A stretch of DNA of 64,000 nt, from contig NC_088717.1 of assembly GCF_963576615.1 (NCBI RefSeq), positions 32,177,324-32,241,323 on the forward strand, given 5' to 3'. This DNA is from Watersipora subatra. Taxonomy: Eukaryota; Bryozoa; Gymnolaemata; Cheilostomatida; Watersiporidae. Numbering within the stretch: position 1 is the stretch's first letter; the number at the start of each line of letters is the position of its first letter. Position numbers and translations under genes: made by a program. Of this stretch, positions 23,358-52,309 are shown in pieces. A model generated the notes under the pieces. That model had not been told where the DNA came from and searched no databases. It saw only the letters and a list, made by a program, of their open reading frames with translations.

Positions 23358-23479
23358 CTACGCTAGCGAATTCTTGACCTGGTCCAACATCTCGTCTAAC
23401 ACTTTCATAAACCTCTTCCTATCTGACTCAGACTCTTGTGTGCAGCATAGCGGTAGATGAGTGGCAACTGGCTGACGGT
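23358..23479 (-). CDS. DHRS12: DHRS12-like exon 8 (last coding exon)
   Basis: 122 nt encoding [20 protein letters not shown] through KNSLA and a TAG at 23360-23358. The acceptor is GTTATAG|ACC. The preceding intron is only 128 bp, in contrast with the kilobase-size introns elsewhere in the gene. Confidence 0.92.
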
Positions 23480-26400
23480 CTATAACATGTACTAGTATTG
23501 AAAGCACCTGCATCAGCTGCCATGCATACAACAACCCTTTCTGTACTAAACTTCATTTTCAGATCCTTTTTAGTTCATATTAATATGCACAAGATTTTCA
23601 GACACACCTTGAAAGAATTGTCCACTTTTGACCAATTTAGCTGCAGGAGAAAGAGCTAACCAGACGACTGTATCAGCACCTTGCACAGGGCTCCTCAGCG
23701 TTGATTTCATAGCTCTATAGAAAGCTGGCATAGCTTCCTTAACACCTGCATGTACAGTGCATATCGTATGTTCTAAACTGTATGACTACTGCGGCATACC
23801 AAATATGAGATTGTTAGGAAGGTTTTTTGGGTGAACCTAGAATAGGTAGGTAAGAACTAAAAGACGTACAGAGATTAACATGTATAGCTCCTAAATTCCT
23901 AAAAATGGCAAGAGGGCAGACGACAAATGGCAAGAGGGCGGAAAACAAATGGCAAAAGGGCGGAAGACAAATTTCAAGAAGGCAACGACAAATGGCAAGA
24001 GGGCGGAAGACAAATGGCAAAAGGGCATCGCTCAGTCTTTCCCGTTGGATCAATTTAAAAAATCAGACTGAAAGTGAATGTGAAAGAGAATCAAAAAGTG
24101 AGTTAAAATGAACCAAGCCGGAAGACAATAATAAAAAATTAGAACGAAGACAAAATTAGAATTAAGTTGTGTGAAAGATTACAACTTATTTCAAGTGTGT
24201 GCTTAGCAAGCTAAATTAATTTAAGTTTCAAGTTTATGTGATGTTGGCGTAAAAAAATGTAGCGTATCGAACATGTTGCTGGCAAATATTTCCCACACCG
24301 CTGTTAGCCGCTACATCTGTCTGGAATGTAAAAACTTCCTACAGCACCTACATAAAAATAATAGATTTTATTCCAGATCGCAACCACTAAATAGGCATCC
24401 GTTACTTTGTGAGCATAGGTGGGGAATTAGTACAATTAAATAAATATGTTGCTTTTAGATGGTTTATTTCAAAGGGTTGAGGATGCATTAATTACTAATT
24501 GAATTAGGAACTGACATCGCTTTATAACATTATACGACCTACATAGAGACAGACATAGAGACAGACAGAGAGAGAGAGAGATAGACAGAGAGACCTACAT
24601 GTAGACAGAGATATTCACCGACAACTTATAAACAAAATTCTCAACACTATATCTTGTTGCGACGGTTTATTCCTATGCCTACATCTATATATAAGTCTAA
24701 GTGTTTGTTTGTCATCCGTATGTCCTGTTATCGTGATAAAGTTTTAGGAATCACTATGTTTCCATGATGCGCAGTGCTTCGGAGTTGCGCTATCTCCGAA
24801 TCGTGGAAACGGCGTCTTCGCACTGAAATCACTGCGCACTGATCAGTGCGAAGCCAGTGCGAATTCGCAGCAAGGAAACAGCGACTGCGCAGTGGCTGCG
24901 CATAGCTCTCATGCCGTGAAGACGGATTCTTCGAGGGCCATAAACTAGTACAAAGGTTGTCCTGCTAATCTTGTTTTTTACTATTCTTCCGATCTTCTTT
25001 CACCTAAATTTAATTATGGTCTGCATTCACGAGGATGATGAGGTGATTACTTTCCTGGACTTTGTTATCGATGCCAACACTTTTCGAAAAATAGGTGGCA
25101 AGTACTAAATAAACGTTTAAATAATATATTACTTAAAAATACTTATTAAAAATACATTACTGTGTAAAAAATGTGTTAAGGTTTGTAAAATCTTGTGAAT
25201 GTGTATTGTAAATAAAAGTATAATGACGACAGAATCATAAAAAGACCGTTTATGACGTTCGGTATCCGTGATCGATTCTATTTCTCCATCAGGCGATTCG
25301 ATTTATACAATTTCTCTTCTCTGGCTAATTTGCGGTATTTGCTGAAAACCACTGCGCAGCATAGAAACGTACAATCCCCTCGACTTCGGAGGGGGCTGCT
25401 TCGCAGTACTGCGCACCATGGAAACATAGTGATTGAAAAACCTCTTCGCACTGGAATTGAACTCGAAAACCCCAGTTCTGCAAACAGGTGTGCTATCCAC
25501 TATGCCACAAAACCGACTTGCCATACTATGGAATAATTGTGCACATTATTTGACTTGCCATTCTTTAATGGTAATTGGTTAAAATATGAACGCTTCACGC
25601 TAGCGCACTTGAACTACTGGAGAAAAAAAATGTGCCCAGACTTCTATAAAATTCTATAAATACATAGGTATACAGTGCACCCCTGAGTTACGATTCCCTG
25701 TTTTATGGTTTTTTCACTTTACGATGGAGAACACGGTGTCTTTCCTTCCCCTCATCATGGTATTTTTTCGCCATTCGACATCAACAAAAATGTCACTCGA
25801 AATTCAGATTTGGCGACCGGTGTGCTGAATACATCGCAATAACAAAAAAGCTATTGTAATATGCTATCCGCCAAAATCCCTCCTACAATGCCTGTAAGAG
25901 ATACCGATGTTCGCTTTCTCTCACTTCAGCATTCTTCGTGTTTCGTAAATGCTTGATATTACGTGAGTGAAATGAAAATTAGTGAAAAGTAAAGGAAAGG
26001 GAAAATTTACTGCACATTTTAGTGTTTAATATAATATTTACTTTAAACTTTAATTCATTATACATATTCAACTATATAACTACATATATAACTTTAATTC
26101 ATTAGCCATGGGCCCTAAGATTAATAACGACAAAGAAGGACCATAATCGTAATCATAACCATAATCATAAGCAAATCATAACCACTAAATACACTAAAGT
26201 TCTTATAGGTAACTATAATTACTATAATATATATATAGTATTTAGGTTTATATACTATTTTGTTGCTAATTTTTAATATGTACAGTATGTATATAAAATT
26301 TTGATGTTTTTTACCAGGGAGTGTTTGCATTAGATAATTATTATGGGTTTCTATACCCCTCTATACAACATTTTCACCTTATTATGCCAACACAGGAATG

Positions 26401-29400
26401 AATTACAGTGCACCCTCAGGATACGATTTTGATCCGTTCCATGGTTGGCATCATATGGTAAAAAAATCCTATGTAGGGATATAGAAACCAAAGTAATTAT
26501 ATAATGCAAACATCCCCTGGTATATAAGAGCTGTACATATTGAAAATTATTAACAAAATAGTATGCTAACTTTGGTAACTATAGTTACCTACAGTAACTT
26601 TATTACATTAAGTGAATTTATTGGTTATGATCCGCATTAAAATGTAACGTTACAATGTGCTATGAGGTACGCTACTACATACCGTACCAAGTTCTTACCT
26701 TCAAGATAGAAGTACGTATAACAAAAACTTTGAATTCACTTTGAATAAGTTTAGCTTACTAAACACATACACTTGAAGCCAAGTTTTAATGTGTATTTTT
26801 AACTATTTCACTGAATTTCAACTTTTTATCATTAAAATTTTATCCCTTATCAGTTTTTGTTTTTGGTTTCACTATAACTTTAATCGGACCTGTTTAAAAC
26901 ATTTTCAACCTAATTCAGCAAATAAACCCGAATGATGCTGTGGATGAAGTGGAATTTTGTTAACAAAGTAATTGAAGTTGTCTGTCTACTAGAAGCTGTA
27001 TGAAAAGGATTGCAACTCCAACTTTGCTACTGGCTTTGAAGGGAAAATATTACCGTTTTACACACGAGAACTGCTGAACTGAGAGAAATCGGTCATCATG
27101 TCTCTTTCAGGCGTTGTGAAAATATTTTTGACAAACAGCATCGGTGTCTTGTTTATTTTGACGTACGTAACAAGCACACCGAAAATAAGCAATTTGAACT
27201 CGAGGGAAAATTTTGTTGAATTCTTATAGTGAAATAAGATTCGTATGGTTCACCTCACCAATAAGTATGGTTCACCTCACCAATAAGTATGGTTCACCTC
27301 ACCAATAAGTATGGTTCACCTCACCAATAAGTATGGTTCACCTCACCAATAAGTATGGTTCACCTCACCAATAAGTATGGTGAGGTGAAAAAATCATCAC
27401 GTTCAACTTCGTAAGGTAAAAAAATTGCATGTCAGGGTTTTATCCTGATTGTGCACTGTTATGTCCTATGGCAGGGTAATCATATCCTGAGGGTGCACTG
27501 TAATGTCCTATGGCAGGGTAATCATATCCTGAGGGTGCACTGTTATGTCCTATGTCAGGGTAATCATATCCTGAGGGTGCACTGTTATGTCCTATGACAG
27601 AGGTCCACTGTATATAGCATAAACTGTCCTATGGCAGGGGTCCACTGTAATGTCGTATGGCAGGGGTCCACTGTATATAGCATAAACTGTCCTATGGCAG
27701 GGGTCCACTGTATACAACATAAACTGTCCTATGGCAGGGGTCCACTGTATATAGCATAAACTGTCCTATGGCAGGGGTCCACTGTAATGTCGTATGGCAG
27801 GGGTCCACTGTATATAGCATAAACTGTCCTATGGCAGGGGTCCACTGTATACAGCATAAACTGTCCTATGGCAGGGGTCCACTGTATATAGCATAAACTG
27901 TCCTATGGCAGGGGTCCACTGTATATAGCATAAACCTTCCTATGGCAGGGGTCCACTGTAATGTCGTATGGCAGGGGTCCACTGTATATAGCATAAACTG
28001 TCCTATGGCAGGGGTCCACTGTAATTTCGTATGGCAGGGGTCCACTGTATATAGCATAAACTGTCCTATGGCAGGGTTCCACTGTAATTTCGTATGGCAG
28101 GGGTCCACTGTATATAGCATAAACTTTAATTCAACTTATAGCACAAGCAGAAATAAACAACCACCTTAATTTAAAAGTTAGATGGGTAAATGTTGTATAT
28201 ATCGATTAAAAATAATTTTTTTTGCAAAAAACAAATTTTATTACCCATGAAATGCTGGGCATTCACCTAGCATTATAATTGTTAAACGAAATTTTACGTA
28301 AAATTTTTAAGCATTTGTTTAAGAAATATTTGGAATATGAGGCATGGTTATATGGAAGACATAATACAGCTGCTAAGATAGAGGTTTGTCACATCTAATA
28401 TGTGTCTATAATAATACAGCTGCTAAGATAGAGGTTTGTCACATCTAATATGTGTCTATAATAATACAGCTGCTAAGATAGAGGTTTGTCACATCTAATA
28501 TGTGTCTATAATAATACAGCTGCTAAGATAGAGGTTTGTCACATCTAATATGTGTCTATAATAATACAGCTGCTAAGATAGAGGTTTGTCACATCTAATA
28601 CATTGTATGTGTCTATAATAATACAGCTGCTAAGATAGAGGTTTGTCACATCTAATATGTGTCTATAATTTAGCATTAACTCCATACATCTACCCAGTTC
28701 TGCATTTAAGCTTGGTGATCTGATTATATATCAAATATATATGTGATGTACATATATCATATATATATATAAATATATATATAAATATATATATATAGAT
28801 ATATATATATATAAGTTTCGGCTAAATATATATATATATATATAGCCGAAACAGTACTATCTGTAGCATGAGCTTATACATATATATATATATATACATA
28901 TGTACTACATGAATACCTGGCGTTGCACAGATTATAAAAACAACTTACAGTGGCAGGTAATGTAGTTGCTACTGGTTAATTTGAGTAAGATAATATACGT
29001 ATTGCTAAGCTTATTAATAAAAGCCATTAAAGCAAGCTTTAGTGACACAGGAGCATAACACAGGAGCATTTTAACCCAGATAATGCCTATCTGCTAAATG
29101 AATCCAATGTATCCCATGTAGCTTAATGGGCAGCTTGTCACCTTGTTAATGGCCCAGATGAAATTTTCTGCGATGCGGACTTTTCAATGCTATATTTAAA
29201 TCGCTATAGCTGGACACAGGGATGAAAACGAAAAGACAAACAAACGCTGAGATTCATATAGACGTATATACTCGCTGAATGCCCGAGTAATAAAAAGTCT
29301 TCGCACAGAAAACCTATTTTTATTCAACATATAACAACAGTTACCATTCTAACTTTCAAACTACATATCTTGAGAGAAGTGTTTTGTGCAGTTCAAATGA

Positions 29401-32400
29401 ATTAATAGAAAATATAAAAGAACTGTAAAGGTGTTTAAATGTGAAAGAATTAGTAAGTAATGGCTACATAAAGTCTGTTTTGCTAGGATTACAATGGAGT
29501 CTGTTTTGCTAGGATTACAATGGAAAATCATTTGGTAATGATACAATTAATATGAACTGAGAAGCAAAATAAAAATCATGAATATGTTGAATTAATAATA
29601 ACAATTTGTGCATAGAAGTGTGGGTGTGTATAAAAAAGGTTACTGTTCTAGCAAAAGCTATCCATCAAAACTTTGAATACGACGATACTGGTACCTCTCG
29701 ATACTGGTACCTCTCGATACTGGTATCTCTCGATACTGGTACCTCTCGATACTGGTACCTCTCGATACTGGTACCTCTCGATACTGGTATCTCTCGATAC
29801 TGGTATCTCACGATACTGGTATCTCTCGATACTGGTACCTCTCGATACTGGTATCTCTCGATACTGGTACCTCTCGATACTGGTATCTCTCGATACTGGT
29901 ACCTCTCGATACTGGTACCTCTCGATACTGGTATCTCTCGATACTGGTACCTCTCGATACTGGTATCTCTCGATACTAGTATCTCTCGATACTGGTACCT
30001 CTCGATACTGGTACCTCTCGATACTGGTATCTCTCGATACTGGTACCTCTCGATACTGGTACCTCTCGATACTGGTACCTCTCGATACTGGTACCTCTCG
30101 ATACTGGTATCTCTCGATACTGGTATCTCTCGATACTGGTACCTCTCAATACTGGTATCTCTCGATTCTGGTACCTCTCGATACTGGTACCTCTCGATAC
30201 TGGTACCTCTTGATATTGGTACAAACGCAAAAATGATTTATCGGACTGTCTTTGTCCGACCGAACGAAGAGAGAATGTGGAGGTGATTCCTACTCGAGAT
30301 TAAGCAAATGTCTGCGTGAAAAGTATAAAGCCTTTACAGATTTAGCGATTGAACCTTGAGAAAAACTGAAAATAAGTGTAACGCCATATTTAAAATTGAA
30401 ACGGCACGTTTGAAAATTACAAATTGAAAAAATAAGTAATGTTAAAAAATTAACTTTAAAAATTTTTTAAAGGTAATATTAATTAATATCAAAGAATTGC
30501 ACCTTTAGCGAGTGCAATTGAAAAAAGAATACACATTATACGGTGAGAGCGATGGGCATGATAAAAACGGCTTAGCCTTTATGTTACACACGCTTGTTAG
30601 TAGATTTGCGATTTTAATGTCGCGAGTTTAAATCTAGTATGAAGGTGATTTTTCATTGCTATGACGTTCTCGCCATAAAAGGACAGACAGATGACAGACA
30701 AATACTGAGATTTCTATGTATAAATAGATATATATATATATATATATAATATATGTAATTTTAATATAATAATTGTAAAATGTTACTTTTATGTCACACT
30801 TTAAGCTTTTGGTTAAGAAAGATTTGGAATATGGGGCAAGGTCATATGAAAATCAATGTGCAACGCAAGGGCTGAACTTTAGTTTATACCCCTTCAGCAC
30901 AAATGGATTCACATTTATTAACCCTTTCAAAAGGAGGGTGAGAAAACCATCACATTCAAAGACTACGCACACTAAAAACCTTTCAATACATGTAGAATAC
31001 TGCTGTACGTTGCTGAAATAATAGACATATTTATAGCAGTGTTGAGATGTGTATGCTGCAGCTACAGCACAAGTACCTGTAGTGTCGGCCCATCCAGGAT
31101 GCATAGTACTGAAGTGAACAAGCGGATGCCTGGAGGCATACATCTCAGACATGACAACTTGCTGTCTTTTTTGCTGTGCGGGTGGAGTGTAAGCAGATGT
31201 AAAAAAGTTCGCCTTTTCACTCTGCGCGTCATCTGCATCCAATTTCTGTGTCAGCATTCCAGCAGATGACACTGTGACCTGACATTGGAGCAAATGCTGT
31301 TTAATAAACAGACAGACGATAATTATCACAGGTGTTACCTGGAGATACTAATAACTGACATTCTATCAACTAGCCACAACTAGTCACACTGACAACTGGG
31401 CATCCTATCATCTAGCCAAAACTAGTCACACTGACAACTGACCATCTTATCAACTAGCCAAAACTAGTCACACTGATAACTGACCATCTTATCAACTAGC
31501 CAAAACTAGTCACAGTGATGACTGACCATCTTATCAACTAGCCAAAACTAGTCACACTGATAACTGGGCATCCTATCAACTAGCCAAAACTAGTCACACT
31601 GACAACTGACCATCTTATCAACTAGCCAAAACTAGTCACACTGATAACTGACTATCTTATCAACTAGCCAAAACTAGTCACACTGATAACTGGGCATCCT
31701 ATCAACTAGCCAAAACTAGTCACACTGATGACTGACCATCTTATCAACTAGCCAAAACTAGTCACACTGATAACTGGGCATCCTATCAACTAGCCAAAAC
31801 TAGTCACACTGATAACTGACCATCTTATCAACTAGCCACAACTAGTCACACTGATAACTGGCCATCCTATAAACATGTGACCTAAGCAACAACTCATCAG
31901 ACAACTAGGGTGAAGGTATTTGTCAAAAATAACATTACTGAGAATGCAAATAAAAAGTGACATAGTGCTGGTACACTCCCTATATATAGCAAGAGAACAA
32001 ATTTTAAATTTCAAAATCATACCGAATACCAAATTTATATTTTTCATTTCTTTTCTGCCACCAATGCAACATGCAACAGACACACGAAGAGGGCAATAGT
32101 CTACAGGCCAACTTTTAAGCAACTTTTTGCATCTGTTTAAAAGTGTGTACGCCTTATAGACACACTCTGTACACCATTTTATATGCATATACAAAGAAGT
32201 TACCGTTTTCTTTGTCACAGCTTGTAAAATGGGCATGACAACAGAGTTGTTGGGGTGGTTAGGGGCATTACTAAATCTGATCTTTATCAAACGACAACCC
32301 ATGAGAGTTAGGAAAACATTCCGAGCAGTTGGCAATACCTTATCATGTAATGTTTTGTGATGAAAGACAAGAGACACAATGGACACAAAGACACAGCAAA

Positions 32401-35400
32401 CACTACAGATGCAACAGACACTACAGACACAACAACTTGTACAGAGTGTTCCAGTTGGCGTATTCAAGCCCTAGATAAAAACAAATACCACTCTTGCATC
32501 TTTAGACTCCTCAAGCAATGGCATAAACGTCTTTGTGAGAAGGTGAACAGCCAAGGTGTTTGTAGCGAAGTTAGTTTCAAAGCCGAGGTCATCTATTGTC
32601 CTCTTTGGTATTATGCAACCCGCATTGTTCACCTGCAATCAGTCAGGTAGACAAGGCGCCTATCACTACGTTTCATTGTTCACCTGCAATCAGTCAGGTA
32701 GACAAGCGTCTATCACTGAGTTTCATTGTTCACCTGCAATCAGTCAGGTAGACAAGGGCCTATCACTAAGTTTCATTGTTCACCTGCAATCAGTCAGGTA
32801 AACAAGGGCCTATCACTAAGTTTCATTGTTCACCTACAATCAGTCAGGTAGACAAGCGTCTATCACTAAGTTTCATTGTTCACCTGCAATTAGTCAGGTA
32901 GACAAGCGTCTATCACTAAGTTTCATTGTTCACCTGCAATCAGTCAGGTAGACAAGCGTCTATCACTAAGTTTCATTGTTCACCTACAATCAGTCAGGTA
33001 GACAAGGGCCTATCACTAAGTTTCATTGTTCACCTACAATCAGTCAGGTAGACAAGGGCCTATCACTAAGTTTCATTGTTCACCTACAATCAGTCAGGTA
33101 GACAAGCGCCTATCACTAAGTTTCATTGTTCACCTGCAATCAGTCAGGTAGACAAGCGCCTATCACTAAGTTTCATTGTTCACCTGCAATCAGTCAGGTA
33201 GACAAGCGCCTATCACTAAGTTTCATTGTTCACCTGCAATCAGTCAGGTAGACAAGGGCCTATCACTAAGTTTCATTGTTCACCTGCAATCAGTCAGGTA
33301 AACAAGGCGCCTATCACTAAGTTTCATTGTTCACCTGCAATCAGTCAGGTAGACAAGCGCCTATCACTAAGTTTCATTGTTCACCTGCAATCAGTCAGGT
33401 AGACAAGCGCTTATCACTAAGTTTCATTGTTCACCTGCAATCAGTCAGGTAGACAAGGCGCCTATCACTAAGTTTCATTGTTCGCCTGCAATCAGTCAGG
33501 TAGACAAGCGCTTATCACTAAGTTTCATTGTTCACCTGCAATCAGTCAGGTAGACAAGGCGCCTATCACTAAGTTTCATTGTTCACCTGCAATCAGTCAG
33601 GTAGACAAGCGCTTATCACTAAGTTTCTATTCTAAAATGCTGCATCAAACATTTGCAAAAACTTGTCATACACATCTGTTGTCAACGTAGGCTTGAGGCA
33701 TAACCAAAGATTCATTTAGATTTGAACTTACACAGTTGAAGTGATGCAAATGAAATGATATCAATATGAAACAAAGACATCAAGCTTCAGTTTGATACAA
33801 TTTTTGTCTTTGTAGACTTACTCAGTCCAGAGATATAATAGTTTGAATAAGATCTTTTCTTGGAACACTCAGATTCAAGCACTTCGGTAAAGAGACCGAC
33901 AGAATTGAATATGACACTGCAATTTGAATGAATTAACTGATATCAATAACAAGAGGGACTGGTAGCCAAGCTACTAGTGACATCATTTTGGCACTTTTTT
34001 TTAAGTGCTTTAATCGGAATAAAGTGTTATTATGGCAGTCAGATTACCTCAAATATCAAAAACAATTTCGAATGATAGAGAAATACTGATGCTCTCTGAT
34101 AAAATCTACTAAGATTTTGCGTAAGTTTATCATTAATAACAGTTTTAATTACAACACAGAGACACAGAGTTTGGGCCCTTGAAAAAAATTTGATATCAAA
34201 TTATTTTAATATTTGTCCTGTACTCTCATTGTTATCCCCTAAGTCGACCAAGGTTCATGAAAAACTTAAAATGCATCGATAATGCTTTGACACACACCAA
34301 ACAATTATAACACGCCAACAAGCACTCACTCATCTCCATATTGTGATGAAACAACGAACTAACATACCGCCACCTCTTAGCGGCTAGTAGCCACAGCTAT
34401 TACGTCTGTTCCTATGCACAAGCTTCCCAAACACAATCTATAAAAATTGAATTTGACCTTTGAATTTGACCTAAGACCTATCTCTAAAAAGATAGAATAA
34501 ACAAGACATCAGATCTTTGCATCCATAGCCGCTCTACCAACATGTTTAGCTTGCCACATCTCTCAACTTAGTCGTGAACAAAGTGCTTAGATAATCATGG
34601 AACATGTCTGAGCACAGTTCACCTACCAATACATCCAGCCCTTCTCCCTTGGCTGCAAAATCACAAGCAAACTTGTAGACCTCTCGTGGTTTAGCCAGAT
34701 CCACCACATGTAGGAACACAGACTACAAACAATAGAACCTTCATACAAGTATTTACATGTATCACATGCTGGATGACCAGAGTAATACTATTGACTGGCA
34801 TAAGTAGCACTCTGCTATTTAATTTGAGTAAAATATTCTGGAAAGAAAGAAGACTTGGTAAAAATTCAAGAGTTCGGTAGAACATTCTGGAAGGGAAGCT
34901 GACTCAGATGGGTATTATCTACAGGTACTACTAATACTTTCCATTTGCGCTTCTCTTGTTGGTCGAAGTCACAAGTATGAAAATAGTTTATTCTGAAAAG
35001 ATATAGCCCATTAAAATAATATGAAAGAACAGAGCTCAGTAGAATACTCTGTGGGAACAGATGATTCATGAGAATATTCTAAAAGGATGATGACCTACTA
35101 GAACCGCCTACAAGGAAAGAAAAATTAGAAGGAAATTCTGGAAAAAGGTGACTCGGTCAAGTCTTAAAAAGAGAGTTTAGTAGGACATTTTGGAAAAAAG
35201 AAGGCTCAGTAAAATTCTAGGACAGAGTACTAAGTTTAACATTCTAGAAGGAAAGAAAAATTAGAAGGAAATTCTGGAAAAAGGTGACTCACATTATTCT
35301 TAGACTCTTCTTTAATCTCATTGAGAGCGGCTTCACCTCTTTCTGGATTTCTGCAGACAAGATGTACTGTACCACCAGCCTTAGCTAGCTCTGTAGCCAC

Positions 35401-38400
35401 TACCTTGCCTATACCTTCATTTAAGTAAAACATATACAAAGATAGAGACTACACACGCAATCATCAAATACAGGATAATGAAATCTTTAGAATATAACTG
35501 GCATTCATACAATTTTAATTATTAACACCGATGAGTTTCCATTTCCAGCTACCGTAATACCTTTACTTGAACGCAGTAGCGTTCTATTTTTCAACCCGTC
35601 CCAGATAATGGCACTTTATTAGAAGTGATGTTCAAAAAGAGGGTAGCATTGAATTTTTCGAATAGTTGGTCAGAATTTTGGAAAGATAAATTTAACCCTT
35701 TTACTGGCAAAGTGAGTGTCGCCTATATTTTGCTCTCTCCTACAGGCAGAGCCCAAGTAATCTTTCGGGATGCAAGAAATCTGCTATAGACTCACTACCA
35801 ACTTGCCATATATCTCTAAATAAATGTGCATTGAGAAGCTGAGAAATACCTCTACCAGTTGATATCTATTGCCTGCAATTACCCTACAGTGATCTTATAA
35901 CCTGTGTTGCAATTTGTTGGAGCTTTCAACTTTTCATTTTATCATCAATTTGAAAGCATATTTTTATTTGATAACTATATTTAATGTGATGCATCAAAGC
36001 TCATTGCATTAATTGATATCTTTGCTACAATTAGCAACAAAAAACTGGCTTTTTATGTGCAATAGAGCAGTTATGAGCGTCGATTCATTGAAAGCCGAGT
36101 TTAGATAATGGCAATGATGATATCAAATAATAATCTTAATCTATATATTTCTCAAAGTATGCCCATGTGTCATCGTATGTTGTGTGTCTGTCGGTTTTCC
36201 GGCTATAGATCTTAAAGTCTAGGTTTTCTGCATTCTGATGGATTTGAACTCTCGACAATATTTTAATCGACAAGCATTTAATCCGGATGTTCTACCACTG
36301 AGCTAGAACACCATAGCTATCAGATACGTTTTCATATAAAGTATACAGCATGCGCACGCTAACCATTTTAGCCTTAGGTTTTCACCAAAGGTTTTGAGAT
36401 TTGTTTGCCTCGGAGCTTGAACATAAATTCGGTTCTCGACTAAACTGAAGCATGCGCATTGCAATTAGCAAAGCTTCGGAAACGCTTGGAAATCGATAAG
36501 CATTTCACGCTTCATAAATTCTTTACAAAAAGGGAGAAACCAGGTGGGACGACGTCTCCTCTACCGAAGAAATTTGCTAGGGAGTTAACTCTTCCGGTCA
36601 AGTCACCCTAAACTGTTTTGAAGGATGAGTCTCCTGTAAAGATGTAAAGTAAACAGGCCATTGCTATTTAGATTTTCTTTTTTCTTCGATTTTTGATTTA
36701 ACTATCTGTTGCATTTTTTGCTATTTCATTATCTATTTTTGCAATTTTTAGTAGTGTATTTTAACCTTTAATGCTTTAGATGTTGTAAAAGCCAAACGTA
36801 CGAAATGTTTACTTTTGCTTTCTTTTTCCATGATCATAAATATGAAACATTTTGTTACAATTAAACACGATCTATATATATATCTGTTTCAATTAATAGT
36901 ATCCAGTATACAGTACAGCTTATGGTGTAAAATGTTGAAAACATACTTTACCGAAGTATATCTCCGAATTAACCCAAGTTTTTTCTCATCTTGGAATCTA
37001 TTAAATACATGTATTCTCAGAAGTTACACATTGTCTAATACCTCCAAAGAAAAGAACCTGTTCTGCACAAAATCATTCCCTCATGATATAAAGTTTGAAA
37101 GTTGCAGTTGTTTGACAAAGTTTGAAAACTTTTACAGTTGTTTTTATTTTCTCTCCTAAATTATTTCAACTATAAAAAGACTTCCCTCATGGTATGTAGT
37201 TTGAAAGTTAGAATGGTAAATGTTGTTATATGTTAAGGACAAATCAATTTTCTATCCAAAGACTTTTTTATTACCCAGGCAACGCCGGGTGGTACAGCTA
37301 GTATGCTATAAATCTACAAAATTATAAGTTATATAGACTAATAATTTATAAAATGCTACAAACATATATTCAAAAGCAAGTGACACAGACAAACTATATT
37401 TATCTATATATATATATAAACTTCTCAAAATATGTGTGTTGGTACGCATTCCGGCTATAAATCTTAAAATCTTGGAATAAAGATTCCGTACCAAAGAAGA
37501 TTCGATGTCGGACCCTGCCGTTAGTCAGTCCGACCCCCGACCCACTAGACCACAGAAATTGAATTGCTAGCTTGCCAATATAAGTCATTATATGAGAGCA
37601 AATACCCAACAGATTTGCGTACGGAGCGGGTCATAGCATAACGTCACGAGAAGCTGTTTGCTCACATTATTAAAAGTACTGGCTGATAGCGCAGGCTAAT
37701 AGCGAGCAACTCTCACTACTTCGCATTGTTTATAAGACAAAACACTTTTCTCATGATATGTAGTTTGAAAGTTAGAATGACAAATTTTGTTATATGTTGA
37801 GTACAAAAATCCCTTTTCTGTAAAGACTTTTATTACCCGGGCAACGCTGGGTAGCCAGCTAATATGTATATATATATCTCAAAGTTTGTCTTTGTGTCAG
37901 TGTATGTACGTACTTCAGCATGTCCGGCTATAGCTATTAAAATATTGGAATTAAAAGCTCGCATTCAGCTGGATTTGAACTCGCAAAGATCACAACCACA
38001 AATTTCAAACCGTGCATTTAGCCACCAAGCTGCGCTGTTTTTACGACTTTATCACTCTATCAAACAACTTATACCCTTTTCTTTGCACACGTTCTCTATG
38101 AACTTTATTAACTCTATGAAACACGATGCTTTCTTGTGTTTTCGTGAACTTCTATATCCGAATTTTCCTTAAGTTCAATTGCTAAATCTGTAAAGGCTAA
38201 TACTTTTCACGCGAACAATTGTATTATCTCGATTAGGAATATCCTCTACATTCTCTCCATTCGGTCAGACAAAGACAGTCCGATATCTCATTTTTACTAG
38301 TATCAAGAGGTACCAGTATCGTCGTATTCAAAGTTTTGATGGATAGCTTTTGCTAGAACAGTAACCTTTTTTATACACACACCCACACTTCTATGCACAA

Positions 38401-38901: not shown

Positions 38902-41900
38902 CATGTATATATATAAATCTCAAAGTTTGTCGTCGTCTGTTCAGATGTCTGCCTGTCCAGCTATATAAAATATATGTATAAATGTATATCAAACTCAAAG
39001 AGTGTCATCGTCTGTAAGGATGTCTGCCTGTCCAGCTATAGCTATTAAAATCTTGGAATAAAAAGCTCACTGCTTGCTGGGCTTAAACTCACAGTGATTG
39101 CAACCGCAGGTTAATATCTGATTGTCTAACTGCGAGTCTACGAAGGCTCTTACCATTCATAGCTCTTACTATATATTGTATACAGTCTTTTCTCGGTGCT
39201 CACGCTAAATGATGTATTACTTGAAACTCTATTAGCTCTATGAAACACAATGCTCTATGACGATGCTTTTTTGTCCCCGTCGTACTAGGGCTAATTTGTT
39301 TCCCGCAAAACTATATCAACAATAATGTCTCTCAAAATTAAAACTTGGCGATTATATCTCAGTTCAGTGTCATCCGTTATGGTAAAATCGGGTTCGCGAA
39401 CAGATTAGTGATAAAATTTTAGTTCAAAGTTTGCTAAAATGCGTACTAAAACTTCCTTCAAGTATGTTTTCAGTAAGCTAAATTCATATAGGTTAGATTT
39501 AGCATTTATGTTACACGCCTGTCTCCAAGGTAAGAACTCTGCACGTTGTACATTGTAATGTTACATTTTTTGCAGATCATACCTACAAAATGCGCTAAAG
39601 GTATTGTAGGTACATGTAACTATATTTAGTAAGGTTAACATATTGTTTTGTTACTATTTTTTAATGATGATGATTTTTAACAGACAGTGATTGCACTAGA
39701 TAATTAATATGGGTTTCTATAGCACTCTACACGTCTATATGATATTTCCACCTTATGATGCCAACACTGAAATGAACTAAAATCATATAATCGTATACCA
39801 AATAATTTTTCATTGTAATCGTAGCAAAACAGACTGTATTTAGCCATTACTTGCTAATAATTTCACATTTACATTTAAACACCTTTACAGTTTTATTTTT
39901 CCTCCTAATTTATTTCAACAAACCACTTCTTTCATCATATGAAATTTAAAAGTTGCAGATTTTAAAAAAGTTTGAAAACCTTTACAGTTGTTTTCTTTTT
40001 TTTCTTAATTCATTTGAACTGCGCAAAAAACACTTTTTTCATGGTATGAAGTTTAAAAGTTAAAATGGTAAATGTTGTATATATATATATATATATGTTA
40101 AATAAAAATAAATTTTCCATCCAAAGACTTTTGTATTACCCAAGCAATGCCAGGCATTCATCTAGGAATACCTATGAAAACAAGAATTAAAATTTTTGAA
40201 ACAACAATATTGACATCGTTTGCTCGGCCAGCTGCGTTCTGATTGTTGCTTGTGTTTGGAACCATTTCATCTTCTTTTGGCTGTTCAATACTTCCCACAG
40301 TATATGTGACCTCAATTCTTTTCCTGCACTGCTGAGCTAGTCGATACTTACACATTGCCGTTTAGTATACACTTTTCACGCAAATAAACAGAAACTCTTA
40401 GCCATGTGTAAGCTTGCGCACGTGTGCTTAACAGAAGTTTTAGCCTCAAAATATTCATACAGATTCCATTGTAATTGCTGACCCATTTTTTACATACGGC
40501 GGAGTATCAAGACCGTGTTGGACAAGGAACTACTATTCAGTCTCATACATTCATTAATTATTTTTATGGTGTTGCTTTAGAAGCTTTAACAAAAAAATTA
40601 TAAAGCTTTGAAATAAGAAAACGGACTTCAATACGAACAGCAACAACAAAGGAATTAATTGTTATTGATGTAACCAAGTCATTATTAGCACAATTTTGTG
40701 AACACTTTCTACTGATCACTTGCTATTATAGGTTCCTAAAGATCAAAGAATGTCGAAGTGGCGGTCAAATAGAGGTGGCGTTCAAATAGAGGTGTTGGGG
40801 TAATTCGTTTCAATTCTCTATAAATGCAGTATTACTAGAAGATTAATAATGTCAAGAACAAACAAGTGTATCAAGTATTAAGGTATAGTCTTCCGACTGC
40901 CACAATGCCTGTACGACTAGACCAGACATAGTCTTCAACAGTGACAAATGCTTAAGCTTGCTCACCAGTGTTTGATCCAGTCACCATGTAATTTCGACCA
41001 TGAGCTTTTACATTTTCCAAATCAGCGGCGACAAAACCTTTGGCAGCTTTCTCAAATCCACTTCTAAAATTGGCAATACACCACGATTTTTATATGCTTA
41101 TATCTATTTAGAATCAACTATGTTTTATGCTATCATTTTACCACACAATCTTACAGTACGAACAGAAAAATAATTTGCTAATTTGACCACCATGGAGCTA
41201 TGATAGACCAATGTCAAGGTTACAAATAAAAACCAAAACCAGGATGCTGCTTATGAACTAATAACACCATATAATTGTTACAACTCCACAATTAGGTGCA
41301 TATTTTAGACTGGATTTCGAGCATTTTAGAAAATGTGATTGAACATAGAAATTTATACAAAACGAAAACCCTCAGACGAGGTAGTAGGGTAGATCTACAA
41401 CCAGCGGTTTTGACGCATCAAAGAGGACTATCAAACATTTACTTATTTCAGACAACCGGGATAACTTTCAGTGACACTGTGGTTGATAAAGTCATAGTGA
41501 CACCGTGGTTGATACAGTCATAGTGAAAGTGACACTGGTTGATACAGTCATAGTGATAGTGACACTGTGGTTGATACAGTCAAAGTGATAGTGACACTGT
41601 GGTTGATACAGTCATAGTGACACTGTGGCTGATACAGTCATAGTGATAGTGATACTGTGGTTGATAAAGTCATAGTGACACTGTGGTTGATACAGTCATA
41701 GTGACACTATGGTTGATACAGTCATAGTGATAGTGACACAGTGGTCGATACAGTCATAGTGATAGTGACAATGTGGTTGATAAAGTCATAGAGACAATGT
41801 AGCTGATACAGTCATAGTGATAGTGACACTGCGGTTGATACAGTCATAGTGATAGTGACACTGTGGTTGATACAGTCATAGTGACGCTGTGGTAACACTT

Positions 41901-44900
41901 TTACATCTACATGTAGGTAACTAGAATAGGTGTGAAGGTATTTATTACCATCCACACATCTCCATAGATATTAGGAAGTATCAACTTCACAGATAAACCT
42001 ACATTATCCATAACATTTCCCAATGATGAGCAGTGACAATGGGGGATGCGGACTAGACCCAACATCTTATCTAAACATCTCGTCACCACCCTTGATATAT
42101 ACATTAAGTAAGAAAATACTCAAGTCCAGCCATCAACGTTGGCCTGCAGCATTCACTGACTAACGTTCAGGAATAATGATGTTGCACAATTACAGCTTAG
42201 AGCAAATATTACAATTGCTAATGGTAGAAAAGCCAAATATATAAAAATTGTAGTTTCATGAGCCAATTATGATATAAGCAAAGGTGCCTCTCACAGTGTC
42301 CCAGGCTGACAAAGTATTTTCCACAGTGTCCCAGGTTGAAGAGGCATCAATAAATACAAATATAATAAATAATTAAAAATACCCTTTTTGATATCTCCAT
42401 CCTCTCCTTAATATATAACAGTTTTTGTCGTGGAAACATTGCAGGTGTGATTTCTCTATTTTGTGTTTATAAAAATGGGCTCATTAGTAGTCCTTATTTA
42501 GAGATTACCACTCCAAAAATATGCCGACAACACAGACCCCACATATTTAGGCTAAGATAGACCATCTGTAACTTACAAGCTGTAAGGATCAGCAACTGTA
42601 AACTGAAGGAGTGCAGACAGTGAAGAACTTTTTAAAGCCGAAATGCTGTGACTTAACCAAGTTCGAATGTTCCATTCTTACGCTCTGCCTAATATATTTT
42701 CTGGCCTAAATGTAATCCTGTCAAGAGTGGTTGGAATTGCTCATTGGCATCTCAGCCATGTAAGCATATGTCCTAGTGATGGATATCAGAGATTCGCTTT
42801 CTACAGTTTCCCAGTCCATGATACCAGAGTCATAAGGGTAACCACATGGCCTTGAATGCTTTGTCAAGGATTTGTTGTACCACATCTCGTTCACTTCACT
42901 TCACCATCCATCTCGTTCACTTTAGTAAGCTTGCTTGTAGTATTTTGCTAACCTGGTGTATTGTATAATCATGCAACCTGAGTTTAATTTGATTACTTCT
43001 TCAATAAATGAATACAACTCCCCCATCCTTAAACATAGATTAGAGCGTTCTAATACTCTTGCATCTGTAATAAAAAAGCGGACAGTAAGTACGACACTGA
43101 GTTTCCTCTATTGTCATCGCAGAACAAAACCCTTGAAATGGAAATGGTGGCCCTGAAAAGGGCCGAAGAGGTTGGTGGGACTACTGGCACTCAGTAGTCG
43201 ACTTTGACTGGTGAGTCCAGTAGCCCGAGAGGATCACTGTCGTCACCGATAGGGTCTACCGGCGGGCGAACTATCTTGGACTCCACTGCATGCCATGGAG
43301 TAGGGCAAGCGTTACGGGCTGGCCTCCAGTACGGTCGTCAGTCTTGTTGTGGCCTTGTGTAGTGTTGCCCTCGGTGATGGTGTTGGCCGCGGGGTGAGCA
43401 CGCTCTTGGTCTCTGAGGTTTGATCTGGGTAAACTGTGTTCTTCGGTGCTCAGCAGAGATGAGCGTTTGCAGGAGAGGCTGGGTTGTGAACACTTTGTCA
43501 CAGGAGGAGCAGCGGTGTTTGTGAACACGAGCATGCCTCTGTAGGTCACGCTCCTCGTTACAAGAAAAGTCGCAAAAAGTATACGAGTACTTCATGCTCG
43601 TAAAGGCGAATGAAATGTCAATCAGTGTGCACCAGTATTTATAGACTGTCAGCATGCGTAAGATAGTTGGTGATGTCTTTTCTAAGCCTATAATCCGACA
43701 GCTTCAAATTGCTGACTCAATGAATCTATATTACATTCGTAGCAAATGCAGTCAAATTTGAATAGTCATTTATAAGGCGAATGCTTAACACTTGTTCAAT
43801 GTAGTGTATATGTATGTGTTATACCAGCAGTTTTTTATGTTAACCATTTATTACCATATTGTTCCAAGATTCGCATGTTACTAGACAAATACTCGAAAAA
43901 TTATTAATACTCGTCTTGCGTGATTAGTTAGTGACAAATGTTATCATTTTTGTATTCAAATATGTGATTGTGGCAACGGTTGACCTAATTACTGTGCAGC
44001 CAATCAACTGTAGATTTTCTCTTGATTTGCTATATAACCTTCCAGTTTTATCATTGCTGGTGTATTACTGCTTGGTGCTGTGAGATATAACACCAATAAA
44101 TATACTGCGTTCTTTACAATAGCTCTGCTTGATTTTCTAAAGCAAATAGTGCATAAAATTTTTGTCACTGTTCTGGCTTTAGCATTGTGATATTAGCCAG
44201 CATATCATAGCTGCATTCACTATAAGTGCTATTGACCGAACATCAAGAATTATTGAGATTGGCTTACTAGAGTGTAACAGTTGAGAAAAGGCACCATCAA
44301 GTCTGTTTATCGGCTCACCTTCGAATCTGTTTATCGGCTCGCCTTCGAGTCTGTTTATGGGCTCACTCACGAGTCTGTTATCGACTCATCGAGTTTGTGT
44401 GAACTTGCTCTTGAGTTGGGAGTCGTCTATCATTTTCTAGTAAAATTTACTTCACATCCCGTAAGCTAAACTTACGTAAGCACCACTTAGCAATTGATAT
44501 CGGACCTACTATTTTTTGTGGTTCGCAATCAAGTTTGAACAATTAGAAATTGCACTCTTTTGCCGATTTCTCAAATCCTACGTGTTCTGCATAAATACTA
44601 AAAGAATAATTCAATATTTTCGTCAGGACGCCTAGGAGCAACCCATTTCTTGAAACGTTATTTGCTCAACTTGGTTGAGTACAACTTTAGTTTATTAAAA
44701 TCGTACCAGTAGGATTCCATTGTAATCCAAAGGACAGTCTTAAAATAAGTGTCGCCTGAAACGTTATTAATAGATAATTAGAATGAGTTTGGTTATCACT
44801 GCCATACCATTATCATAATTTATTTTTCTCGCGAACACAACCCTTGTAAAACATTTCAAATCAAGCAAAACTTAGCGAGAAGAGAAATGCGTCTTTAGTA

Positions 44901-44966
44901 AAATACATACTTTGTGAATTCTTGGAGACCTTTTGCTACAAAAAAGGATTGTCTAATGAGATTCAT
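23358..44966 (-). CDS. DHRS12: DHRS12-like short-chain dehydrogenase/reductase, eight coding exons
   Basis: The only complete host gene in the window. Coding exons: 44966-44911, 41063-40966, 35414-35293, 34722-34627, 32632-32489, 31278-31077, 23745-23608, 23479-23358. The total is 978 nt, 325 residues plus TAG. All junctions are GT-AG and all phases agree. The protein shows the SDR fold: cofactor loop TGSNTGIG (47-54), the VDL strand after it, NNAG (126-129) and catalytic-Ser region VTVSSAG (173-179). It also has the DHRS12-type features [30 protein letters not shown] and a C-terminal VATHLPL. Family members are NAD(P)-dependent oxidoreductases of uncertain substrate. The usual YxxxK is disturbed here (Y202 and K209 are seven apart). 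A hydrophobic N-terminus ([13 protein letters not shown]) may form a membrane anchor. Length is close to that of vertebrate DHRS12 as I recall it (about 317). The identification rests on recall of the family, without a search. Confidence 0.92.
23608..23745 (-). CDS. DHRS12: DHRS12-like exon 7
   Basis: 138 nt encoding [20 protein letters not shown] and then [18 protein letters not shown] through [16 protein letters not shown] is a strong family signature. The acceptor is TGCAG|GTGTT and the donor CAAG|GTGTGT. The intron before it is over 7 kb and is full of tandem arrays and transposons. Confidence 0.93.
24541..24600. repeat. GA-rich simple repeat
   Basis: CATAGAGACAGA grading into pure GAGAGA and back, within intron 6 of the DHRS12-like gene. 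Confidence 0.7.
24750..25431. mobile_element. DNA element with inverted ends AATCACTATGTTTCCATG
   Basis: The left end AATCACTATGTTTCCATGAT (24751-24770) recurs inverted at about 25405-25431 (CATGGAAACATAGTGATT). Inside the ends are GC-rich palindromes built from CACTGCGCA and TTCGCAGTGC. CACTA-type ends suggest an EnSpm/CACTA MITE, but no clean target duplication is seen. It has no ORF. Confidence 0.5.
25432..25530 (-). repeat. tRNA-derived SINE head
   Basis: The minus strand carries a tRNA-like A box (TGGCATAGTGGATAGCAC) and B box (CGAGTTCAATTCC) with tRNA-like spacing. The T-stem does not pair properly, so it is a pol III promoter relic rather than a working tRNA. Confidence 0.5.
26406..27500. 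mobile_element. pogo/mariner-like element with TA target duplication
   Basis: The left end TA|CAGTGCACCCTCAGGATACG and the right end CATATCCTGAGGGTGCACTG|TA are near-perfect inverted repeats flanked by TA on both sides. It has no transposase. The 22-bp minisatellite at 27240-27378 lies inside. Sequence just left of the element (26230-26395) is an inverted diverged copy of 26440-26590, and a third copy lies at 39600-39790, so this is a multi-copy MITE family. A related end (CAGTGCACCCCTGAGTTACG) is at 25673. Confidence 0.6.
27240..27378. repeat. 22-bp minisatellite, 6 units
   Basis: Unit TATGGTTCACCTCACCAATA plus AG; the copies are identical. It ends in GGTGAGGTGA, which is complementary to the unit and can form a hairpin. 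Confidence 0.9.
27440..28125. repeat. compound minisatellite derived from a transposon end
   Basis: The first part repeats CCTGAGGGTGCACTG with ATGTCCTATGGCAGGGTAAT, so it consists of tandem copies of the right terminus of the pogo/mariner-like element. From about 27600 it becomes GTCCTATGGCAGGGGTCCAC plus TGTATATAGCATAAACT (37 bp), alternating with a shorter GTCGTATGGCAGGGGTCCAC plus TGTAAT form. Confidence 0.85.
28361..28668. repeat. 50-bp minisatellite, 6 units
   Basis: Unit ATAATACAGCTGCTAAGATA plus AGGTTTGTCACATCTAATATGTGTCTATA-type remainder. Unit starts are exactly 50 bp apart (28361, 28411, ...). One unit has a 9-bp insertion near 28601. The copies are otherwise almost identical, so the array is young. 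Confidence 0.92.
28735..28890. repeat. TA-rich block with GTTTCGGCTA hairpin
   Basis: GTTTCGGCTA (28815-28824) and TAGCCGAAAC (28843-28852) flank TA repeats. The sequence after the hairpin, ACAGTACTATCTGTAGCATG, is the inverse of the start of the duplicated unit at 51665, so this is the end of the same repeat family. Confidence 0.65.
29271..30710 (-). mobile_element. Helitron-like non-autonomous element hosting a minisatellite
   Basis: An inverted relative of the element at 37877-38650. Read on the minus strand it starts TCTCAGTATTTGTCTGTC and includes a tRNA-like B box (the inverse of GCGAGTTTAAATC near 30625), then the minisatellite flanks. It ends near a hairpin-type segment TTACTCGGGCATTCAGCGAG. 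The flanks of the array (29580-29690 and 30220-30350) match 38180-38430 closely. Confidence 0.45.
29690..30222. repeat. 16-bp minisatellite, about 33 units
   Basis: Unit CGATACTGGTACCTCT, with CCT/TCT alternation in the last triplet. Because 16 is not a multiple of 3, all frames of a strand read the same periodic peptide, which explains the long overlapping ORFs here; none is a gene. The homologous element at 38 kb has only one to two units at this place. Confidence 0.95.
31077..31278 (-). CDS. DHRS12: DHRS12-like exon 6 (active-site exon)
   Basis: 202 nt encoding [20 protein letters not shown] through [13 protein letters not shown]. It holds the catalytic Ser region and the active-site Lys in QQKRQQVV. 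The expected Y-x-x-x-K reads P-A-Q-Q-K here; the nearest Tyr is three residues further upstream (AYTPPAQQK). The acceptor is TGTCAG|GTC and the donor ACAG|GTACTT, phase 1. Confidence 0.93.
31360..31870. repeat. 42-bp minisatellite, about 12 units
   Basis: Unit AACTAGCCAAAACTAGTCAC plus ACTGATAACTGACCATCTTATC. Variants alternate GACCATCTT and GGGCATCCT, giving a two-type pattern. It lies in intron 5, ending about 80 bp from the exon 6 acceptor. Confidence 0.92.
32489..32632 (-). CDS. DHRS12: DHRS12-like exon 5 (NNAG exon)
   Basis: 144 nt in phase 0 encoding [20 protein letters not shown] and then [20 protein letters not shown] through KDARV. NNAG is the SDR structural motif and NFATNTL is the conserved helix. 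The acceptor GATTGCAG|GTGAACAATG is the last of about 20 near-identical copies, the rest lying in the tandem array upstream (32633-33625). The donor is GTG|GTATTT. Confidence 0.93.
32621..33625 (-). repeat. 50-bp minisatellite made of splice-acceptor copies, about 20 units
   Basis: Plus-strand unit TTTCATTGTTCACCTGCAAT plus CAGTCAGGTAGACAAGCGCCTATCACTAAG. On the minus strand each unit reads ...CTACCTGACTGATTGCAG then GTGAACAATG, the 3' splice site and first ten bases of exon 5. The true acceptor (32632) is the last member of the array. Units differ mainly at GCGCC/GCGTC/GGGCC. Confidence 0.93.
33640..34600. other. intron 4 remainder, no gene seen
   Basis: AT-rich intronic DNA. The segment near 33790-33900 (TTTGTCTTTGTAGACTTACTC) resembles part of the MITE at 62123-62420. 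Otherwise I see nothing. Confidence 0.4.
34627..34722 (-). CDS. DHRS12: DHRS12-like exon 4
   Basis: 96 nt in phase 0 encoding [20 protein letters not shown] and then [15 protein letters not shown] is the third-strand motif whose Asp contacts the adenine in SDRs. The acceptor is TTTGTAG|TCT and the donor TTG|GTAGGT. Confidence 0.92.
34800..35291. repeat. degenerate tandem repeat in intron 3
   Basis: Variations on AGTAGAACATTCTGGAAGG and AAGGTGACTC recur about every 40-60 bp. One 43-bp block (35111-35153) is repeated almost exactly at 35249-35291, ending four bases inside the exon 3 donor. Confidence 0.6.
35293..35414 (-). CDS. DHRS12: DHRS12-like exon 3
   Basis: 122 nt. It completes TGSNTGIGK and continues [19 protein letters not shown] to EESKNN. 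The HLVCR segment after the second beta strand carries the Arg that usually indicates NADP preference. The acceptor is GAAG|GTATAGG and the donor AAT|GTGAGT. The intron just past the donor repeats a 43-bp block also present at 35111-35153. Confidence 0.92.
36150..37301 (+). mobile_element. Helitron-like element 1 with tRNA-like segment
   Basis: Starts TCTCAAAGTATGCCCATG and ends with the hairpin ACCCAGGCAACGCCGGGT followed by CTAG|T, the terminal form (5' TC, 3' hairpin plus CTRR) of Helitrons. On the minus strand 36305-36240 carries a tRNA-like A box (TAGCTCAGTGGTAGAAC) and B box (GAGAGTTCAAATCC). A tRNA-derived SINE inserted at the 5' end is the alternative reading. Confidence 0.5.
37423..37862 (+). 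mobile_element. Helitron-like element 2
   Basis: Starts TCTCAAAATATGTGTG and ends ACCCGGGCAACGCTGGGT then CTAA|T. It is the most compact complete copy (440 bp), with a degraded tRNA-like part (the inverse of TGGTCTAGTGGGTC) near 37530-37570. It has no ORF. Confidence 0.5.
37877..38650 (+). mobile_element. Helitron-like element 3 (3' end lost in microsatellite)
   Basis: Starts TCTCAAAGTTTGTC. Minus-strand tRNA-like boxes are at 38035-37965 (B box GCGAGTTCAAATCC). Around 38290-38330 it holds one or two units of the 16-bp repeat that is expanded at 29690-30222. The 3' hairpin is missing where the ATGT-rich microsatellite begins. Confidence 0.5.
38640..38917. repeat. TA/TATG-rich microsatellite
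   Basis: TATATG and TACATG units over about 280 bp. Reading frames of Tyr, Ile and Met on both strands are repeat artefacts. Confidence 0.9.
38992..40165 (+). mobile_element. Helitron-like element 4/5, composite
   Basis: Starts near ACTCAAAGAGTGTCATCG and ends with CCAAGCAATGCCAGGCATTCATCTAG. The interior contains a copy of the pogo/mariner-like MITE sequence (39540-39790), so it is nested. A short 5' fragment of another copy is at 38918-38965. Confidence 0.4.
40166..40960. other. intron 2 near exon 2, no gene seen
   Basis: AT-rich, with no recognisable repeat or coding segment apart from a short direct repeat (GTGGCGGTCAAATAGAG / GTGGCGTTCAAATAGAG) near 40758-40790. Confidence 0.4.
40966..41063 (-). 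CDS. DHRS12: DHRS12-like exon 2
   Basis: 98 nt encoding [20 protein letters not shown] and then [12 protein letters not shown]. It ends inside the Gly of the cofactor-binding TGxxxGxG motif. The acceptor is TTTTAG|AAG and the donor CACTG|GTGAGC. Confidence 0.9.
41460..41892. repeat. minisatellite of 23-32-bp units in intron 1
   Basis: Unit GTGACACTGTGGTTGATACA plus GTCATA, with an optional extra GTGATA. The unit length therefore switches between two forms. About 16 copies. Confidence 0.88.
43149..43164 (-). promoter_or_regulatory. histone-type 3' stem-loop
   Basis: The minus strand reads GGCCCTTTTCAGGGCC followed by ACCA, matching the replication-dependent histone mRNA 3' hairpin (GGYYCTTTTCAGRRCC then ACCA): six base pairs with a UUUC loop. 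It starts 26 nt after the stop of the zinc-finger pseudogene. No clear U7-type purine box follows. Confidence 0.75.
43191..43595 (-). pseudogene. intronless C2H2 zinc-finger gene copy with histone-like ends
   Basis: ATG at 43595. The first frame encodes [20 protein letters not shown] with HARVH, then [20 protein letters not shown] with SAEH. Two C2H2 fingers are recognisable, but each has lost one ligand by what looks like a single base change (Cys to Tyr in finger 1; His to Leu in finger 2). Downstream, coding character moves to a second frame (ending GGQP) and then a third, which ends acidic: [20 protein letters not shown] with KVDY and TGA at 43193-43191. Two frameshifts and two lost ligands make this a pseudogene. 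It is GC-rich against an AT-rich background, intronless, and sits in intron 1 of the DHRS12-like gene on the same strand. The intact family member is not in this window. Confidence 0.65.
43636..43643 (-). promoter_or_regulatory. TATA box of the zinc-finger pseudogene
   Basis: TATAAATA on the minus strand, 41 nt before the ATG. Such a compact promoter and leader is typical of histone genes. Confidence 0.55.
44290..44375. repeat. short tandem repeat, about 4 units
   Basis: TTCGAATCTGTTTATCGGCT and variants every 23-24 bp. Confidence 0.7.
44911..44966 (-). CDS. DHRS12: DHRS12-like exon 1
   Basis: ATG at 44966-44964 in the context GAAATGA. It encodes residues 1-18, [18 protein letters not shown], and leaves two bases (AA) completed by exon 2. 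The donor is AA|GTATGT. The start is chosen because the family begins with this M-x-L-x-R...KGL-x-E-(Y/F)-TK block and the orphan exon at 5732 starts identically. Confidence 0.88.

Positions 44967-51608: not shown

Positions 51609-51668
<60 letters not shown>
51609..51668. repeat. (TA)n microsatellite
   Basis: About 60 bp of pure TA directly preceding the 259-bp tandem duplication. Confidence 0.95.
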
Positions 51669-51669
<1 letters not shown>

Positions 51670-52169
51670 TCATGCTACAGACAGTACTGTTTTGGCTATT
51701 GAAGCCTCATCAGTGCAGCTCAGAGCTTACGCAAGGGACACAAATCCCATTACCAATGAGAGTTGATTTTCTGCCATAAAACAACTAGGTTGCCTCACAG
51801 ACTTTAAGAAAATCAATGTGCTGGCACCAGAGTGCTCAAATCACAAAAGTGATGAGCTTTGCACAAAGGCTAATAGTGCCACACCTCTCACAGAGTGCTC
51901 AACCAAACCGAAGTAAGGGAGCATATACTCATGCTACAGACAGTACTGTTTCGGCTATTGAAGCCTCATCAGTGCAGCTCAGAGCTTAGGCAAGGGACAC
52001 AAATCCCATTACCAATGAGAGTTGATTTCCTGCCATGAAACAACTAGGTTGCCTCACAGACTTTAAGAAAATCAATGTGCTGGCACCAGAGTGCTCAAAT
52101 CACAAAAGTGATGAGCTTTGCACAAAGGCTAATAGTGCCACACTTCTCACAGAGTGCTCAACCAAACCA
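51665..52169. repeat. 259-bp tandem duplication, two units
   Basis: Units 51665-51923 and 51924-52169 are almost identical. Each starts TACTCATGCTACAGACAG and GTTTCGGCTATTG and ends AGAGTGCTCAACCAAACC. They are bounded by TA tracts on both sides. The start of the unit recurs inverted at 28843-28880. A tandem core next to a microsatellite recalls the pearl-type or Helentron-type repeats of molluscs, but I cannot confirm this. Confidence 0.85.
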
Positions 52170-52309
52170 AAAAAAAAAAAATATATATATATATATATAG
52201 TGTATATATATAGCCAAAACATGGTATAATAATTAACAGTTTTGGTATATACCAAAACTTTGGTATATATATATACCAAAACCAAATATATATATATATA
52301 TATACCAGA
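52170..52309. repeat. A-tract, TA repeats and TTTTGGTATA palindromes
   Basis: A 12-base A run, TA repeats, then TTTTGGTATATACCAAAA and TTTGGTATATATATATACCAAA hairpins up to the LINE junction. Confidence 0.8.

Follow-up and report, generated by a model that had tools for sequence, protein, structure and literature searches.

Tandem repeats that extend over exon-intron borders, at the 5' or the 3' end, with AG/GT splice signals in many of them, have been described as mirages in amphioxus, where the genes concerned include Adh3, the globins BflGb6 and BflGb9, TnC and PGBD5 (PMC3087553, PMC3902484). According to these reports, their length is unstable between haplotypes and somatically (PMC3087553, PMC3902484), and RT-PCR points to regular splicing (PMC3087553). 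Related arrangements have been reported in other organisms. Minisatellite growth at exon-intron boundaries is described for internal tandem repeats of human segmental duplications, where new introns and alternative transcripts are associated with it (PMC2812944), and reported intron gains include a potato RdRp case with a duplicated intron 3' end and exon start, and a fission yeast case with tandem AGGT units (PMC4974935). The ratchet points and recursive exons of Drosophila also combine an adjoining acceptor and donor (AG/GT), and are reported to lie mostly in long introns and to carry conserved motifs (PMC8605326).

The array considered here comes from a bryozoan, Watersipora subatra, and lies on its chromosome 10. 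It shares with the amphioxus mirages a repeat that spans an intron-exon border and bears AG/GT units, yet its host is not a cephalochordate, and it consists of 20 x 50 bp, compared to 6 and 3 x 150-160 bp reported for the BflGb6 haplotypes and 10-72 bp for Adh3. It resembles the human case in the growth of a minisatellite at an exon-intron boundary. Its unit recalls the potato duplication and its AG/GT series the fission yeast one; unlike both, it lengthens an existing intron and creates no new one. Its decoy "exons" of about 50 nt are similar to the Drosophila recursive exons, yet the bryozoan site is a repeat, and a second array in a sister gene has no donor after its AG. A search of titles and opening lines of abstracts, with most subscription papers outside it, found no mirage reported from a bryozoan. 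The array is most fittingly classed as a mirage from a phylum new to the phenomenon.

The window, meaning the whole stretch of 64,000 nucleotides that was analyzed, is C10:32177324-32241323 in a genome of 783.7 Mb. A DHRS12-like gene of eight exons lies in it on the minus strand, with its coding part from 44966 to 23358. A human protein served as the guide for exon placement, after which the borders were read and the exons joined; the product is identical over 325 aa to the NCBI W. subatra protein P0001 (dehydrogenase/reductase SDR family member 12-like). The following features, in window positions, are based for the exons on this identity of the joined protein.

44911..44966, minus strand: exon 1 (coding part)
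40966..41063, minus strand: exon 2
35293..35414, minus strand: exon 3
34627..34722, minus strand: exon 4, with donor TTG/GTAGGT (the slash marks the border) and phase 0 exit
33627..34626, minus strand: the portion of intron 4 that precedes the array (total intron length 1994 bp)
32623..33626, minus strand: the array, 20 units, of which the last holds the real acceptor and the other 19 are decoys (TRF and unit-by-unit reading)
32623..32673, minus strand: last unit, 51 bp, containing the genuine acceptor of intron 4, with the first base of exon 5 at 32632 (joined exons match P0001, 325 aa)
32489..32632, minus strand: exon 5, 144 nt, starting GTG AAC AAT (VNNAG motif)
31077..31278, minus strand: exon 6
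23608..23745, minus strand: exon 7
23358..23479, minus strand: exon 8 (coding part and stop codon)

TRF reports a 50-bp unit in 20.0 copies with 96% matches at 32623-33627, and reading unit by unit resolves 16 units of 50 bp and 4 of 51 bp, 1004 bp in all, from 33626 down to 32623. A preceding sequence-only reading had placed the array at 32621..33625; the array is real, and its ends shift by 1-2 bases to 32623-33626. That reading had also proposed about 20 units with the genuine acceptor in the last, which agrees with the 20 units counted and with the junction to exon 5 in the annotated protein, and its placement of the end of exon 4 at 34627 and its assignment of a DHRS12-like exon 5 are borne out by the border reading with the joined protein and by the 325-aa identity, respectively. 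Each unit combines 40-41 intron bases with the 10 bases that open exon 5, and follows on the minus strand the pattern AAAC...CAG/GTGAACAATG or a close variant. The exon part is exactly GTGAACAATG in 19 of the 20 units and GCGAACAATG in the remaining one, and the last unit continues into the remainder of exon 5. The acceptor triplet is CAG in 16 units and TAG in 4.

The tandem unit spans an intron-exon border of the gene, and most units carry both splice signals: AG is kept in 20/20 and is followed directly by GT in 19/20, including 18 of the 19 decoys. The tandem-copied border in the window is a confirmed observation. From -23 to +10, 11 of the 19 decoys (12 of 20 units, counting the real one) are identical to the real site. 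Within the array no clear lag signal of a higher-order repeat was seen. The branch-point-like region that had been attributed to the unit is doubtful: close to the real AG, yUnAy is matched twice, at -11 and -7, nearer to the AG than branch points usually are. A mobile or dispersed repeat is ruled out, as the core is matched nowhere else in the genome: a 24-mer core has 14 genome-wide matches and a 38-mer, at up to 3 mismatches, has 19, all of them inside the array.

The exon bases taken up into the unit code for the V/I-NNAG motif, which is present in 130 of 135 fetched proteins. Because this motif is conserved, the gene was the source and the array the copy, and the earlier proposal of growth by tandem copying of the border gains support together with a direction. 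A 50-bp segment across the border of intron 4 and exon 5 may first have been duplicated in tandem and then have grown to 20 units, in a genome with minisatellite-rich introns where repeats seemingly arise regardless of splice junctions. When the repeat grows on the upstream side of the exon, the last border stays intact and the gene thereby survives. The array is very probably such a mirage minisatellite, a tolerated repeat growth of which the last acceptor is used. The annotated protein supports a join of exon 4 to the last unit, although this NCBI model may derive from homology and not from reads. As the local sequence of many decoys does not differ from that of the real site, the choice would have to depend on position or on the sequence downstream, which at the real acceptor is a true exon equipped with a donor and enhancers. 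Any decoy joins should be removed by nonsense-mediated decay. The donor of exon 5 is itself weak in a model of U1 pairing (-4.2 kcal/mol), which counts against simple exon definition. Local RNA structure that exposes the real acceptor is likewise unsupported: its CAG is buried like that of most decoys, with a predicted probability of being unpaired of 0.004 (decoys 0.003-0.325), and in 19 of the 20 units the value falls below the median (0.122) of 200 random AG sites.

Births of repeats irrespective of splice sites roughly account for the border arrays. In the window gene, blind seeding gives P=0.165 for at least one array straddling a splice site, an estimate that uses 9 arrays hand-picked from the TRF output, and random placement of whole arrays instead would put 1.3 of them over a splice site on average. 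The nine minisatellites, the border array included, cover about 18% of the gene. Other minisatellites of the gene lie at 23903-24027, 27243-28669, 29683-30222, 31347-31874, 41470-41884 and 44292-44388. A derivation of the array at 27243-27381 from the donor of exon 4 was considered and rejected: 15 bases match with one gap, but 9 of 40 shuffled windows do equally well.

A tandem sister gene, whose protein P0002 is 74% identical, occupies C10:32161.0-32167.9 kb excluding its first exon. Its intron 4 measures 135 bp and has no array. It carries an array at another border:

C10:32162378-32163335: sister array over the intron 6/exon 7 acceptor, 53 bp x 18 units (unit reading)

This array comprises 17 decoys and the real acceptor, with 36 intron and 17 exon bases in each unit. 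AG is kept in 15 of the 17 decoys, all 17 lead to a stop at codon 10, and the AG is followed by CT, hence there is no donor. The chance of a straddling seed in this gene is about 0.22, with approximate exon edges. Arrays of different sequence at different introns of the two sisters point to independent births.

A survey of Myosin_head exon matches extends these observations to other parts of the genome. The search found 75 such matches, and 70 were read, as 30 loci and 40 stretches, the 5 weakest being left out; several loci overlap within one gene, and the exon edges are those of the domain matches. Duplications of about two copies occur over the border of at least 3 of the 70, two at donors and one at an acceptor. 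The donor-spanning cases are tandem duplications of 43 bp x 2.0 at 100% (L063, 522-620) and of 31 bp x 2.3 at 89% (L068, 362-431). The acceptor-spanning case (L065, 597-868) consists of a 129-bp and a 143-bp copy, each ending in TTTGCTGCAG and then 24 exon bases, and equal except in the length of a TA run. In L088 (562-630) an array of 18 bp x 3.8 starts exactly at the donor GT, with no exon bases inside. TRF missed L065, which was found by BLAST self-comparison; the latter did not find L063, L068 or L088, and an ungapped scan gave the reverse. As no single search method is complete, 3/70 is a lower bound. The ungapped scan also yielded L102, which is a dispersed 25-bp repeat pair and not tandem. 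By eye, and with approximate edge placement, the arrays near L042, L047, L056, L059, L060, L065, L074, L088, L089, L097 and L100 end outside the exon, leaving aside the cases named. Blind placement predicts 1.66 edge-straddling TRF arrays in the myosin stretches and 3 were counted (L063, L068 and L088), with L065 in addition. The myosin edge arrays are somewhat above the blind expectation, with small numbers that show neither clear enrichment nor strong exclusion.

Mirages are hereby extended from lancelets to a bryozoan, at high copy number in two sister genes and as two-copy cases elsewhere. Their occurrence in sister genes, and at donors and an acceptor of myosin, suggests that they may be widespread among animals with repeat-rich genomes, and perhaps not a peculiarity of cephalochordates. 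The array also offers a natural test of splice-site choice, in which 11 decoys match the real site at each of 33 bases and only position and surroundings differ. RNA reads at such an array could tell apart first-come choice, exon definition and the removal of wrong products by decay.

An alternative view gives the decoys a function, whereby transcripts spliced to them stop early and decay, and the length of the array sets the mRNA level. The anatomy of the array accords with such poison splicing. Read on from exon 4 in phase 0, 18 of the 19 decoys reach a stop at codon 6 and one at codon 7, with the peptides VNNET-stop (17/19), ANNET-stop (1/19) and VNNETQ-stop (1/19); the sequence-only reading had predicted a stop within six codons, which fits all decoys except the one at codon 7. 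Nonsense-mediated decay is expected for joins with such early stops. The identity of 11 decoys with the real acceptor over the stretch already given is a further point in favor, as is the comparison of donors discussed below. Against this, the splice core is under no detected constraint: 3 of its 24 columns vary, versus 7 of 27 elsewhere in the unit (Fisher P=0.30), so that no selection on the decoys was seen in a comparison of the core with the rest of the unit. Furthermore, the sister gene manages without an array in intron 4, and undisturbed splicing is reported for the mirages of amphioxus (PMC3087553). A 129-aa query for the decoy isoform returned 15 hits in protein databases, none near-identical and the best at 81% over a third of the query; this is a weak point, because decayed RNAs rarely reach protein databases. 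The earlier suggestion that the array tunes expression accordingly lacks support from the column test, from the arrayless sister intron and from the blind-seeding value of P=0.165, and the support for a regulatory reading would be limited to anatomy. Regulation by decoy splicing is quite unlikely. If it did operate, each extra unit would raise the share of decoy-taking, decayed transcripts, and DHRS12-like output would differ between colonies, or even between zooids if the array were somatically unstable. It is quite unlikely, moreover, that minisatellites at splice borders belong to the permanent make-up of a repeat-rich animal genome and that the AG/GT array is at the same time a rheostat of variable copy number.

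The AG/GT units could also act as recursive splice sites, a wrong choice being re-spliced until only exon 5 is left and the product is seamless. Donor strengths bearing on this possibility come from a model of U1 pairing energy only. Predicted pairing with the U1 5' end is -8.4 kcal/mol for the CAG/GTGAAC of 14 of the 19 decoys, -6.8 for the TAG/GTGAAC of 4 and -4.5 for the single CAG/GCGAAC, compared to -8.3 to -1.8 kcal/mol for the seven real donors of the gene. In this model 14 of the 19 decoys are CAG/GT sites with U1 pairing equal to or above that of any real donor, a feature new here. Of 1247 GTs elsewhere in the introns, 8 reach -8.4 kcal/mol, and CAG/GTGAAC thus ranks with the strongest intronic donor sequences. 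With AG/GT and strong U1 pairing in 18 of the 19 decoys, the sequence of the array is not splicing-inert. If exon 4 were spliced to a decoy, the regenerated donor would be TTG/GTGAAC; it is predicted at -5.4 kcal/mol and is stronger than 3 of the 7 real donors, which also favors recursion. In skipped recursive exons, however, the regenerated donor is reported to be generally stronger than the downstream one (PMC8605326), and here the order is opposite, -5.4 against -8.4 kcal/mol for the CAG/GTGAAC of the next unit. Decoy exons would consequently tend to be kept and not ratcheted out, and it is for this reason that the donor-competition rule (PMC8605326) counts in favor of poison splicing. Steps between neighboring units would in addition be introns of 50 nt, and the shortest intron of the gene has 128 nt. 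Finally, the sister array, with AG/CT and no donor, indicates that mirages persist without ratcheting. Recursive splicing is therefore a very unlikely account of the array.

Tandem repeats are generally error-prone, but an assembly artefact, or a collapsed or expanded repeat, is hardly credible in view of the scattered distinct variants of the units, the independent second array in the sister gene, and a HiFi assembly reported with a primary QV of 63.2 and with 13.30 Gb in 2.20 million reads, or about 6 kb per read, which exceeds the 1-kb array (PMC12902671). An alternate haplotype assembly is listed as GCA_963576605.1 (PMC12902671).

Some minor features accompany the locus. Exon 3 (35293-35414) encodes the same 40 residues in both sisters despite their overall identity of 74%, and may be a gene-conversion tract. 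At the thresholds used, no RNA family or tRNA appears in the window. Remnants of transposable elements lie at 9276-10202, 15525-16136, 54954-55409 and 58482-60992, with matches to zf-RVT (below cut-off), RVT_1, DDE_Tnp_4, rve, and DUF7047 with RVT_1 (below cut-off). A 259-bp unit x 1.9 at 97% (TRF) occupies 51664-52168, just ahead of an ORF at 52237-52617 that resembles, by eye, the reverse-transcriptase ORF at 9276-10202.
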